Assembly: GCA_904419785.1 (NCBI GenBank)
Contig: CAJFSY010000008.1
Location: forward strand, 62,001 to 126,000
Reading direction: 5' to 3'
DNA length: 64,000 nucleotides
Source of the DNA: an uncultured Neglectibacter sp.
GTDB lineage: Bacteria; Bacillota; Clostridia; Oscillospirales; Acutalibacteraceae
Under the pieces are notes generated by a model. That model made no database searches. It worked only from the letters and a program-made list of their open reading frames with translations, and had not been told where the DNA came from. The stretch's first letter is position 1, and the number at the start of each line of letters is the position of its first letter. This document shows positions 1,073 through 15,086 of this stretch, one piece after another. A program made the translations under genes and the position numbers.

Positions 1073-2026
1073 ATGGAAAAAATCGATAAGAGCAGGTTTG
1101 CCTGGGTGGGTTCCGACCCAGACCGGCGGGAAGGTATCGCCCGCCCCAGCGTGACTTATTGGAAAGATGCCATGGGCCGTTTGTTCCGCAACCCTGTGGC
1201 GGTGGTCTGTTTGGTGATTATCCTTTTGCTGATCCTCTCCTGCGTGGTGGTGCCGTTCCTCACGCCCTTTGAGAGCCGTGAGCAGCACCTTTCTGAAACA
1301 AATGTGGGATTTTTCAGCGCCTGCACCGACGAACGCTATGCAGGCCAGAACGCGATGCATATTTTCGGCACCGACCGTTTGGGCCGTGACCTTCTGGCCC
1401 GTACCTTCGAGGGCGGCCGGGTGTCTTTGATGATCGCTTTCGCGGCAGTGTTTATCAACCTTATCATCGGTATGATCTACGGCGGAATCTCCGGCTATTT
1501 CGGCGGCATCGTGGATAACATCATGATGCGTATCGTGGAAGTGGTCAATGGTATCCCTTATTTGATCGTGGTGGTGCTGTTGATGATGGTGCTGCCCAAA
1601 GGCATATTCACCATGGTTGTGGCTTACGCCACAGTGGGCTGGACCGGTATGGCCCGGCTGGTGCGAGGCCAGTGTCTGGCTTTGAAGAACCAGGAATTCG
1701 TGGTGGCTTCGGAAGCCATGGGCGCGAAAGCTTCCCGGATCATTGGAAAGCATCTTCTGCCCAACACCTTGTCGGTCATCATAATCAACGTGACCTTGCA
1801 GGTGCCCAGCGCCATCTTTACCGAGGCGTTCCTTTCCTACATCGGTATGGGCGTGCCCGTGCCCCAGCCCTCTTGGGGCATGTTGGCCCAGGAAGGCGCC
1901 AGCGTGTTCCAGCTGTATCCCTTCCAGTTGTGGATTCCCGCCATCGCCATCAGCTTGACCATGCTTTCGTTCAACCTGTTAGGCGACGGCTTGCGGGATG
2001 CCTTTGACCCGCGTTTGAGGAGGTGA
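1073..2026 (+). CDS. oppC: Oligopeptide/oligosaccharide-type ABC transporter permease (OppC/DppC family)
   Basis: Second membrane permease of the importer, 317 residues. A cytoplasmic N-terminus of about 35 residues leads into the OppC_N helix (VAVVCLVIILLLILSCVVV), then the FGTDRLGRDLLARTFEGGR motif typical of OppC/DppC, and an EAA loop (FVVASEAMGAKASRIIGKHL) around residues 205-225. I chose ATG 1073 because AGGAGGG (about 1059-1065) lies 7-8 bases upstream; the in-frame ATG at 1028 lies inside oppB and has no ribosome site. The stop is 5 bases before the oppD start, and its last codons carry the oppD ribosome site GAGGAGG. Confidence 0.93.
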   Translation: MEKIDKSRFAWVGSDPDRREGIARPSVTYWKDAMGRLFRNPVAVVCLVIILLLILSCVVVPFLTPFESREQHLSETNVGFFSACTDERYAGQNAMHIFGTDRLGRDLLARTFEGGRVSLMIAFAAVFINLIIGMIYGGISGYFGGIVDNIMMRIVEVVNGIPYLIVVVLLMMVLPKGIFTMVVAYATVGWTGMARLVRGQCLALKNQEFVVASEAMGAKASRIIGKHLLPNTLSVIIINVTLQVPSAIFTEAFLSYIGMGVPVPQPSWGMLAQEGASVFQLYPFQLWIPAIAISLTMLSFNLLGDGLRDAFDPRLRR

Positions 2027-12629: not shown

Positions 12630-12670
12630 AAAAACCGCCGCACGGTGTTTGCCGTACAGCGGTTTTTTTT
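12630..12670. terminator. Bidirectional terminator between M28 peptidase and ABC-F genes
   Basis: AAAAACCGC and GCGGTTTTTT arms enclose an inner ACGG/CCGT pairing. T runs are present on both strands, so it can end transcription of both convergent genes. Confidence 0.8.
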
Positions 12671-14228
12671 ATTGCTGGGCTTGCGCCCAAAGGTTTTCGG
12701 TTTTTTTAAGGCCTTCCGGTTCCAGGCGGTAAAGGGTGGGGCAAACCTGGCCCAGGTATTTCCGGTCGTGAGAGACGCTGATGATACATCCGGGGAACTC
12801 TTCCAGAATGCCCCGGATCACCGGCCCGGACAGGGGGCTGAAATTCCGGGTGGGCTCATCCAGTATCAGCACGTTGCTGCCGTCCAGGATCATTTTAAGG
12901 AAAAACAGCTTGGCTTTCTGTCCGCCGGAAAGTTCCCGGATGGTGTGTTCCTGCTCCTCGGCGGTGTATTTCATGCTGCCAAGATAGGTCTTTGCCTTGG
13001 TGATCTCCTCTTTTTCCCCGCTTGTTGTCAAAAACTCCACCGGGGTCAGGTCTTGGTTGACGGTTTCCCCATAATCCTGGGGCATATAGGCGGCCCGCAG
13101 GTCAGAGCGGCCCAGCAGTTCCTGGGCGATCTTCCGCAAGAGGGTGGTCTTGCCCGCCCCGTTGCGCCCGATGATGGCTACATGTTCCGGCCCCCGCACA
13201 TACAGCCGCAGGTTTTCCGCCAAAGTCCCATCCTGTGTCTCCAATACGGGGAGGGAAAAGTCCAGCACGGTTTTGCCGCTGGGCACGGCAGTATCTTCTC
13301 CAAACCCTACCAGGATGGCCTCTTCGCTGTCGGGGAACTCCGTCATGTCCTGCCGTTCCCGGTCCAGGCGGTGCTCCAGGGACTTTACCGCCTTCATCTT
13401 CTTTTTCAAAAGCTGCCCCACATGGTCCCGTTCGGCGTGGGAAATGGTATTTAGACGGTGTTCCACCTTCTGCTGGATCTTTCGGAACTTTTCCTGCTGC
13501 TTCCGGTCCTCTTCCCGTTCCTTTCTGGCAACCTGCTCCTGGTGGGAGAACTTTTGCAGCCGTTCTTCCACATACTGGCGGTAACCCATCCGGGCAACGG
13601 TCCAGCGGGGCAATGTTTTGCGCCGCAGCTGCTCCATGTGCACGATGACGTTGGCGGTTCGTTCCAGAAGCAGTTCGTCGTGGGAGATATACAGCACCGG
13701 CTGGGGACAGTCCCGGATAAATTCTTCCAGCCAAGAAAGGGTTTCAATGTCCAGGTCGTTGGAGGGTTCGTCCAGCAGATAGCAGTCCGGCCGGCGAAGA
13801 GTGAGCAAAGCCATGCGCAGCTTCACCTTTTCCCCTCCGGAAAAAGTCCCCATCTTCCGGTCGGAGTAGAACCACTCCATGGGGAACCGCAGCCGTTTGG
13901 CGGCAGCGGCCAGTTCCCCCGGGGAAGCTTCCAGAAAAGCCGGTTCCTCACAGCAGAACTCGTAGGCAGTGAAAGCGGCCTGGTCCGGGGGCAGCTCTTG
14001 GGAGAGATACCCCAAGATCATGCCGTCTTTCTGGATGGCGCCGCTGTATTCCACATAGCCTTCCACCAGGGCCGGGTCGTAGATCAGCTTTAGCAGGGTG
14101 GATTTCCCGTTGCCTTCCTCCCCGATAATGGCGGCTTTGTCCCCTGGGTTGAGGGCGAAGGTGAACTCTTTTAAAAGCTGGCGCAGGTCTTTTTTCATGG
14201 TGACGCTGAGATCTCGTATTTGAAGCAT
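12669..14228 (-). CDS. ABC-F family ATPase (ribosome-protection-type candidate)
   Basis: Two ATP-binding cassettes with no membrane segments: the ABC-F layout of proteins that act on the ribosome, some of which dislodge antibiotics. In the 519-residue protein, Walker A motifs are IIGEEGNGKST (35-45) and IIGRNGAGKTT (352-362), signatures are FSGGEKVKL and LSGGQKAKL, and Walker B is LLDEPSNDLD and LILDEPTRNFSPLS. A charged helical linker (about 215-295) joins them; the linker tip decides drug type in this family but cannot be interpreted by eye. ATG 14228 follows AGGAGGT. An in-frame extension to 14453 is leader RNA, not protein. The attenuator-like leader supports, but does not prove, an antibiotic-response role. 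Confidence 0.88.
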   Translation of the reverse strand: MLQIRDLSVTMKKDLRQLLKEFTFALNPGDKAAIIGEEGNGKSTLLKLIYDPALVEGYVEYSGAIQKDGMILGYLSQELPPDQAAFTAYEFCCEEPAFLEASPGELAAAAKRLRFPMEWFYSDRKMGTFSGGEKVKLRMALLTLRRPDCYLLDEPSNDLDIETLSWLEEFIRDCPQPVLYISHDELLLERTANVIVHMEQLRRKTLPRWTVARMGYRQYVEERLQKFSHQEQVARKEREEDRKQQEKFRKIQQKVEHRLNTISHAERDHVGQLLKKKMKAVKSLEHRLDRERQDMTEFPDSEEAILVGFGEDTAVPSGKTVLDFSLPVLETQDGTLAENLRLYVRGPEHVAIIGRNGAGKTTLLRKIAQELLGRSDLRAAYMPQDYGETVNQDLTPVEFLTTSGEKEEITKAKTYLGSMKYTAEEQEHTIRELSGGQKAKLFFLKMILDGSNVLILDEPTRNFSPLSGPVIRGILEEFPGCIISVSHDRKYLGQVCPTLYRLEPEGLKKTENLWAQAQQ

Positions 14229-14466
14229 ATATAACCTCCTAGGGTAGAAAAAAGGGCTTGTTCCGCCGCCGGAACAAGCCCAAGATACCCAGGAAAAGGC
14301 AGGCCAAAGGCACATAGCCCTGGCGCTGGCCACAAAAAAAGGATGTCCTAAGCCATAAAAACCGGCAGCACAGAACCGCCCCCGGGCCACGCCCGAAAGC
14401 CTGATTCTATCGTTTCCGTTCTTTAGGCTTATACTAACATCCTTCCACTCCATTCATAAGGTCGTT
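14229..14466 (-). promoter_or_regulatory. Attenuator-like 5' leader of the ABC-F gene
   Basis: The transcript is predicted to start near 14466 and to carry about 238 untranslated bases. Near its 5' end are short reading frames: MNGVEGC (14457-14434) and ATG-TTA-GTA-stop (14440-14429), the latter with GGAG seven bases upstream. The second frame lies within an arm (14442-14426) complementary to 14354-14341, and that arm is followed by seven T on the transcribed strand, forming a first terminator. A second, perfect 11-bp hairpin (14281-14271 with 14264-14254) followed by TTTTTT ends just before the AGGAGGT ribosome site. The layout fits ribosome-stalling attenuation of drug-resistance ABC-F genes. 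Confidence 0.7.
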
Positions 14467-14472
14467 AGGCAC

Positions 14473-14501
14473 AGGATAGCACGAAGGGGCGGGTTTGTCA
14501 A
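14473..14501 (-). promoter_or_regulatory. Promoter of the ABC-F transcript
   Basis: Read leftward: TTGACA (14501-14496), a 17-base spacer and TATCCT (14478-14473). It lies back to back with the promoter of the P-loop kinase gene. Confidence 0.75.
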
Positions 14502-14527
14502 CCGGTTGAGGGGAAGAAAAAGAAATG

Positions 14528-14556
14528 TTGACAAACCCTGGAGAGTCCCCTATGAT
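14528..14556 (+). promoter_or_regulatory. Promoter of the P-loop kinase gene
   Basis: TTGACA (14528-14533), exactly 17 bases, then TATGAT (14551-14556). The predicted leader is very short, with AAAGGAGGG directly before the start codon. Confidence 0.85.
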
Positions 14557-14579
14557 ACAAACCAAAAGGAGGGAAAGTC

Positions 14580-15086
14580 ATGAAAGAGAAATCGACCCTC
14601 ACCTTGATGGTGGGCCTGCCGGGGTCTGGAAAGACGACCCTGGCCAAGCGCTTGGAGGAAGAGACCGGGGCAGTCCGCTTTACCCCGGATGAATGGCACA
14701 TTTTTCTGTTTGGGGATGATTTCCACGACCCTCAGCAGCACCAGCTCCACGACAGCCGCCACGACCGGGTGGAAGAACTGATGTGGTCCCTGGGGAAAGA
14801 ATTGCTCCAAAAGGGCGTCAGCGTGATTTTGGATTTCGGCTTTTGGGCCAAAGAGCAGCGGGAAGAAAAGTATCGGGAAGCCAAGGCTCTGGGGGCAGAG
14901 TTTCAAATCCGGTATACCCACGCGCCTTTTGAGGAATTGTGCCGCCGTTTGGAGTTTCGGGGCAAAGAGGGCCGGGGCGATGTGTTTGAAAGCATCACCC
15001 GGGAGGACATGGAAGAATGGGCTTCGCTGTTCCAGCCGCCCGATGAGGAAGAATTGGCAGGACGCTATCCGGGCGGCAACACATAA
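14580..15086 (+). CDS. AAA_33/zeta-type P-loop kinase
   Basis: A 168-residue single-domain ATP-binding protein. The P-loop is GLPGSGKTTLAKRL at residues 12-25, followed by the FTPDEWH segment that corresponds to the substrate-side aspartate of zeta-toxin/polynucleotide-kinase-like enzymes. The region RYTHAPFEELCRRLEFRGKEGRG carries lid arginines. Members phosphorylate varied small molecules or nucleic-acid ends; the substrate here is not identifiable. No antitoxin-like gene adjoins it, so a toxin role is not supported. ATG 14580 follows AAAGGAGGG. It ends exactly where the recA SOS box begins. Confidence 0.8.
   Translation: MKEKSTLTLMVGLPGSGKTTLAKRLEEETGAVRFTPDEWHIFLFGDDFHDPQQHQLHDSRHDRVEELMWSLGKELLQKGVSVILDFGFWAKEQREEKYREAKALGAEFQIRYTHAPFEELCRRLEFRGKEGRGDVFESITREDMEEWASLFQPPDEEELAGRYPGGNT

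Follow-up and report, generated by a model that had tools for sequence, protein, structure and literature searches.

A conserved leader carrying a three-codon frame upstream of a clostridial ABC-F gene is predicted to be a ribosome-mediated transcription attenuator

Overview

Upstream of an ABC-F gene in the window, the 64,000-nucleotide stretch of DNA analysed here, we identified a leader that very probably acts as a ribosome-mediated transcription attenuator, in which a block to translation of a three-codon frame would turn on the gene, whose product is probably a ribosome-protection protein. The frame, the two alternative structures, their conservation, the covariation and the modelled switch are computational results. 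An attenuator of this kind had been proposed in an earlier note on this DNA, together with covariation and folding analysis in homologues as its check; that analysis, run here, supports the proposal, with the frame, hairpin 1 (by covariation) and the terminator all conserved in relatives, the opposite of the lack of conservation that the note had named as counting against it.

The mechanism that we infer includes translation of the frame, stalling at a particular codon, the identity of the inducing drugs and protection by the ABC-F protein. In the absence of drug, ribosomes would clear the frame at once, and the frame RNA would fold into hairpin 1 with the 3' half of the hairpin locked away. 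With hairpin 1 formed, the terminator (14281-14254) would form and transcription would stop at about 14248. A drug of the pleuromutilin, lincosamide or streptogramin-A type would hold a ribosome on the frame, with a footprint covering both frame-side hairpin segments; the freed 3' half would pair with the terminator 5' arm before the terminator 3' arm had been made, and polymerase would read through into the ABC-F gene.

Anatomy of the leader

The gene and the parts of its leader all lie on the minus strand, as follows.

14473 to 14501, minus strand: sigma-70-type promoter, TTGACA (14501-14496), 17 nt and TATCCT (14478-14473), with TG preceding the -10
14446 to 14451, minus strand: GGAGTG, Shine-Dalgarno site for the three-codon frame, a conserved column block in alignments A1 and A7
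14429 to 14440, minus strand: putative regulatory three-codon frame, ATG-TTA-GTA-TAA (Met-Leu-Val), kept as M-x-x-stop or M-x-x-R/K-stop
14337 to 14446, minus strand: hairpin 1, predicted anti-antiterminator with the frame inside its 5' arm (from fold, covariation and arm swaps); helices 14442-14436 with 14347-14341 and 14431-14426 with 14354-14349, plus inner and apical helices
14334 to 14340, minus strand: seven T 3' of hairpin 1, possible first terminator or RNA-polymerase pause site
14341 to 14370, minus strand: predicted antiterminator 5' strand, common to hairpin 1, TGCTGCCGG (14370-14362) and GGCTTAGGA..ATCC (14354-14341)
14264 to 14290, minus strand: predicted antiterminator 3' strand, CCGGCGGCG (14272-14264), TCTTGGGCT (14285-14277) and GGGT (14290-14287), overlapping the terminator 5' arm and loop
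14248 to 14281, minus strand: intrinsic terminator, 12-bp perfect stem GGGCTTGTTCCG/CGGAACAAGCCC (14281-14254), loop GCGG, then TTTTTT; position conserved in A1
14235 to 14240, minus strand: AGGAGG, Shine-Dalgarno site for the ABC-F gene, conserved in A1
12669 to 14228, minus strand: ABC-F gene, ATG at 14228, 519 aa, two ABC domains, of a subfamily without a name

The promoter that the earlier note had placed about 240 bases before the ABC-F start was found at 14501-14473 as TTGACA-17-TATCCT; it equals the consensus at 10 of 12 positions, and transcription would start at about 14466. Also present are two further elements described there, namely the frame ATG-TTA-GTA with GGAG before it (14440-14429 and 14451-14448, respectively), which is conserved in relatives, and the pairing of the frame-side arm with 14354-14341, followed by seven T (14340-14334). 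The second terminator it reported was recovered with its perfect stem and T-run before AGGAGG, but the stem comprises 12 bp rather than 11 and is followed by six T. Folding of the whole 238-nt leader yielded -107.9 kcal/mol (z of -5.6), and that of the 137-nt stretch containing hairpin 1 a z of -4.4, with 0 of 200 shuffles as good in either case. The leader is single copy in the 2.23-Mb genome, a second match corresponding to 28 bases of the terminator palindrome on the other strand.

A small spacer hairpin (14324-14303) was also observed between hairpin 1 and the terminator, in the same place as the vmlR pause hairpin. Within the intergenic region shared with the divergent neighbour (14580-15086, plus strand), which encodes a small P-loop kinase-like protein (Pfam AAA_33, 84.7 bits), a plus-strand promoter-like site precedes that gene (TTGACA at 14528, TATGAT at 14556).

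Of 190 relatives found for the ABC-F protein, the best 80 served as homologous loci. The closest are labelled Neglecta/Neglectibacter, Acutalibacter, Lachnospiraceae and other Clostridia, many of them gut-derived (from animals) by label. Leaders were grouped by protein identity, not by tree, into a near group comprising the window and L012-L026 (16 leaders) and a far group comprising the leaders of more distant genes.

Terminator and the gene's own start

Attenuation might act mainly on translation of the ABC-F gene, through masking of its Shine-Dalgarno site and with termination secondary, as in Clostridioides difficile cplR, a reading that we regard as unlikely. In its favour, both layers are present in cplR (PMC10201436), the free fold of the window pairs AGGAGG with CCT-containing stretches, and in far relatives such as L058, L064 and L072 the terminator hairpin was seen, by reading, to reach the gene's own start. 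In the window, however, AGGAGG lies outside the terminator stem, and the intrinsic terminator and T-tract before the ABC-F gene are conserved in A1.

The group with MINR frames (L058, L064, L072, L074, L079 and similar loci) was seen by reading to have a terminator that extends as far as the start of the ABC-F gene and that carries a GAGAGRGGTG-like stretch in its 3' arm; the gene's own Shine-Dalgarno site therefore seems masked in this group, as in cplR.

Conservation of the short frame

Transcription attenuation by a ribosome on the short frame was examined through the frames of the homologous loci. Selected by reading, a three-codon ATG frame was found in the right setting at 36 of the 80 loci, and a four-codon frame such as MINR, MSNR or MIIK at 27 of the other 44. 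Neither was found by reading at 16 of the 79 loci with usable upstream sequence (e.g. L033, L037, L039, L042 and L046), L055 being the one locus that lacks it; a five-codon frame may be present at L063. A strict pattern of Shine-Dalgarno site and three- or four-codon frame between -560 and -100, drawn up after the frames had been seen, matched 54 of 78 testable upstream regions. The reverse strand gave 0 of 78, and 100 dinucleotide shuffles gave a mean of 1.36 (maximum 5). Peptides matching this pattern include MINR (10), MLV (7), MFR (6), MSNR (4), and MRK, MSSR and MIIK (3 each), with others such as MIV, MHA and MFA. Given this variation, what is conserved is position, length and stop rather than one peptide.

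Codon usage in the frame might point to an amino-acid attenuator gauging charged Leu or Val tRNA. Codon 2, TTA (14437-14435), accounts for 2.9% of Leu codons in the window's ATG-started ORFs of more than 300 codons (six frames, spurious ones included), and TTA GTA is used in all nine MLV frames among the 16 near leaders, with zero synonymous change. Against this, the residues after Met differ widely among relatives and the downstream gene is not biosynthetic, and we consider such a sensor most improbable.

The other short frame described in the earlier note, MNGVEGC (14457-14434), fared less well: it is identical in 2 of the 16 near leaders, while 6 have another ATG frame and 8 have none. Overlapping the Shine-Dalgarno site of the three-codon frame, it was rejected as a sensor for its lack of conservation.

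Hairpin 1

Since MAFFT misaligned the inner helices, whether applied to the hairpin or to the leader as a whole (RNAalifold found no more than 26 pairs on A1 and 9 on A2), a covariance model of hairpin 1 was bootstrapped from three close sequences, the window and two close leaders. Searched against 88 sources at E<=1, this model identified 17 leaders at the expected place and in sense orientation, 14 of them outside the building set, and 6 other matches, three of which were these hairpins picked up in antisense orientation. In A7 (14 rows), an alignment fitted to the structure and hence biased towards it, 86.4% of cells pair and two-sided changes occur in 25 of 40 pairs; none of 500 shuffles reached any of five measures, and pairing fell to 38-51% when the 3' partner was shifted by 1-3 columns. 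An alignment-free test was provided by swapping arms between leaders (fixed window, n=36), in which cognate arms gave -18.6 kcal/mol versus -12.5 kcal/mol for swapped arms, with 0 of 20000 permutations reaching the cognate sum; the result also holds within the near (n=16) and far (n=20) groups. Furthermore, when each leader was folded, a frame-bearing hairpin was obtained in 62 of 64.

A conserved, stable and long 5' leader structure ahead of a terminator is also what a riboswitch would present, with hairpin 1 binding a small molecule and the ribosome uninvolved. However, the best-conserved bases are those of the Shine-Dalgarno site, the ATG, the stop codon and the alternative helices, there is no conserved loop suggestive of a binding core, and the apical loops differ in both length and sequence. 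Nor does any Rfam family match the window at gathering score, the two matches at E<=10 being far below their gathering scores. We accordingly assign the riboswitch a very slight probability.

For the attenuator, hairpin 1 is predicted to serve chiefly as an anti-antiterminator. The earlier note had read it as a first terminator, and a run of at least four T within 8 nt 3' of the hairpin is indeed present in 8 of 16 near leaders, but in only 5 of 46 far leaders (1 of 19 with three-codon and 4 of 27 with four-codon frames), compared to a TTTT background of 0.088 of all 8-nt stretches of the leaders; by reading, at least four T follow the hairpin in 9 of the 14 A7 rows. Because the rate in far leaders is close to background, hairpin 1 is a terminator in at most part of the family. 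A role as first terminator is possible for part of the near group, where it could equally be a pause site like that of vmlR.

Antiterminator and modelled switch

Within the 3' half of hairpin 1, TGCCG complements a CCGGCA-like sequence within the terminator 5' arm and loop, and a second helix adjoins. In the window these helices pair TGCTGCCGG (14370-14362) with CCGGCGGCG (14272-14264) and GGCTTAGGA (14354-14346) with TCTTGGGCT (14285-14277). Arm swaps across 36 leaders, ten of whose terminators had been placed by hand beforehand, yielded a mean of -18.1 kcal/mol for cognate duplexes, which changed to -15.4 kcal/mol on swapping; the cognate value was reached in 0 of 20000 permutations overall, in 15 of 20000 among the near leaders (n=16) and in 26 of 20000 among the far leaders (n=20). 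The signal per leader is modest: the cognate outranks all others in only 3 of 36 rows, its median rank is 10.5 by row and 8 by column, and the far leaders L044, L045, L053, L056 and L067 rank 27-34 of 36 by row. The antiterminator is also less weakened by arm swaps than hairpin 1.

The effect of a ribosome was modelled by ending the transcript inside the terminator loop and masking about -12 to +16 around the ATG as the footprint. Pairing of the terminator 5' arm with the upstream leader increased from a mean of 0.24 to 0.70, the window itself going from 0.20 to 0.74. The rise exceeded 0.05 in 31 of the 34 leaders modelled; among the exceptions, L067 moved in the wrong direction, and L035 and L043 were almost unmoved. 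A footprint over the apical hairpin had no effect (0.25), and one displaced by 28 nt left the switch partly open across the family (0.53) and closed in the window (0.21). Placed six nucleotides further on, the footprint is as effective as at the start (0.72), and the anatomy therefore cannot tell stalling at the start codon from stalling at the last sense codon, a step that rests on the literature. In this model the antiterminator is the pairing predicted to make the leader a switch, and it was missing from the earlier note.

These results also bear on the notion that the leader holds two ordinary terminators and a fortuitous frame, with no regulation or merely the ending of an upstream transcript, to which we attach hardly any weight: terminator-like sites are not rare here (four between 13900 and 14900 on both strands, versus 2.0 in shuffles), such that a site of this kind alone is weak evidence and conservation decides, but each of the two mutually exclusive structures is backed by covariation or arm swaps, the adjacent gene is divergently oriented, and 15 of 16 near leaders have a promoter-like match at -80 to -5 relative to the frame (31 of 64 overall; mean 0.8, maximum 4, in mononucleotide shuffles of the 64). 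Promoter-like sites number 3 in the same 13900-14900 region on both strands, versus 0.3 in shuffles.

The ABC-F protein

Among the 25 best matches listed, no NCBIfam cut-off was reached by the window protein, the best being NF000355 (269.8 versus 380), with Vga at 200 versus 725, the CplR model NF043038 at 185.8 versus 780 bits and the Lsa model at 121.6 versus 750. Compared to solved structures, a profile of 36 relatives scored VmlR2 (8buu) at 248 bits, Lmo0919/VgaL at 247, 7p48 at 208 and VmlR at 207, followed by ABCF1 (204), Uup (202), YheS (200) and EttA (191). For the window protein alone (phmmer), the scores were VmlR2 178, YheS 144, EttA 140, Lmo0919 133 and VmlR (chain 6ha8, ExpZ) 128 bits. 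The distribution of the gene is patchy, with 9 of 150 family genomes positive at E<=1e-60, and patchiness within genera is used elsewhere as a sign of resistance ABC-F proteins (PMC6723617). No plasmid relative of at least 60% identity was found among 44 records, the matches listed being 26-28% identical. A resistance role through ribosome protection is likely; we infer it only, since no NCBIfam cut-off is reached and YheS and EttA outscore Lmo0919 and VmlR in the single-sequence search. In a same-genus ABC-F homologue (L004, 1501-3036), one in-frame TAA was observed in the matched stretch, and its leader still fits the model.

Distribution of the leader

An order-wide search of 394 genomes with model R2 (E<=0.01), under strict filters by which weak members are missed, yielded matches in 7 genomes, 6 of which precede window-type ABC-F genes, as established by tblastn for five genomes, the sixth being the window's own. 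The remaining match (L098) looks like chance from tblastn and reading. A class-wide search of 391 genomes with model R3, for which three leaders of the far group had been used (E<=0.05), also produced matches in 7 genomes, of which one, L109, is clearly real; the other six (L108 and L110-L114) look like chance from reading alone.

The L109 leader (1501-1616, minus strand) comprises a four-codon MKNR frame and a like hairpin and terminator, and precedes a different ABC-F gene, whose best model is Lsa (525 bits versus a cut-off of 750, from a 468-residue stretch). Over 114 nt, this leader, L109/L115, shares 72% identity with the leader of the window-type gene in L057. By a looser pattern, used with no shuffle control, short frames were also identified upstream of 9 of 30 Lsa-like genes from 196 genomes (MKNR, MRR, MRN, MCSK, MIR, MCI twice, MKISV and MSEN).

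These findings suggest movement of the cassette from one ABC-F subfamily to another; similar leaders before both may also reflect descent from a common ancestral leader, or convergence in certain cases. We tentatively raise, as a possibility somewhat short of even, that the leader is one portable Clostridia cassette exchanged among ABC-F subfamilies, with a frame that toggles between three and four codons, and with the hairpin of half of the near leaders, that of the window included, perhaps also a first terminator by virtue of its T-run, giving two checkpoints under one stalled ribosome.

Comparison with known systems

Among the papers listed, in literature mostly outside subscription journals and judged for the most part by title and opening of the abstract, no description of a leader of this ABC-F subfamily was recognised, and none of such leaders in Acutalibacteraceae or Lachnospiraceae. 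The leader of Bacillus subtilis vmlR, a gene induced by lincosamides and pleuromutilins, comprises a frame encoding MIN, an anti-antiterminator, an antiterminator, a terminator and pausing (PMC9226507). The window leader resembles it in having a three-codon frame with its own Shine-Dalgarno site in an anti-antiterminator hairpin, an antiterminator and an intrinsic terminator ahead of an ABC-F gene; it differs in its MLV frame, in a protein of another, unnamed subfamily, in the seven T after hairpin 1, and in relatives labelled Neglectibacter, Acutalibacter and Lachnospiraceae. The clostridial cplR leader, with a frame encoding MR[I/M], combines transcription and translation layers, the latter shown for C. 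difficile (PMC10201436). It shares with the window a three-codon frame, a 5' hairpin sequestering that frame, a terminator and an antiterminator, but hides its own Shine-Dalgarno site within the terminator stem, and the window protein is far under the CplR cut-off.

The tripeptide itself is identical to that of are5scL1, the frame of Streptomyces are5sc, on which lincosamides and pleuromutilins stall ribosomes (PMC12421871); the likeness is one of tripeptide, and are5sc is a Streptomyces ARE5 gene whose native frame starts with TTG. In the Listeria lmo0919/vgaL and hflXr leaders, the resistance gene is antiterminated when a ribosome-targeting drug is present, the hflXr leader differing in its 14-codon RLR frame (PMC6310831, PMC11550727).

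If correct, our reading extends drug-sensing attenuation to a large ABC-F subfamily without a name. The genes would then stay silent in the absence of a lincosamide-, pleuromutilin- or streptogramin-A-type drug, and resistance surveys scoring presence only would misjudge them. The natural series of three- and four-codon frames (MLV, MRK, MFR, MINR, MSNR, MIIK and others) could show whether residues tune the drug sensed, a follow-up urged in PMC10201436. Of the features typical of vmlR and cplR, computation recovered a conserved short frame, a frame-bearing anti-antiterminator, an exclusive antiterminator (more weakly than the hairpin) and an intrinsic terminator. By analogy, the window leader is of the same predicted logic as that published for vmlR and cplR, and extends this known kind to a further ABC-F subfamily.
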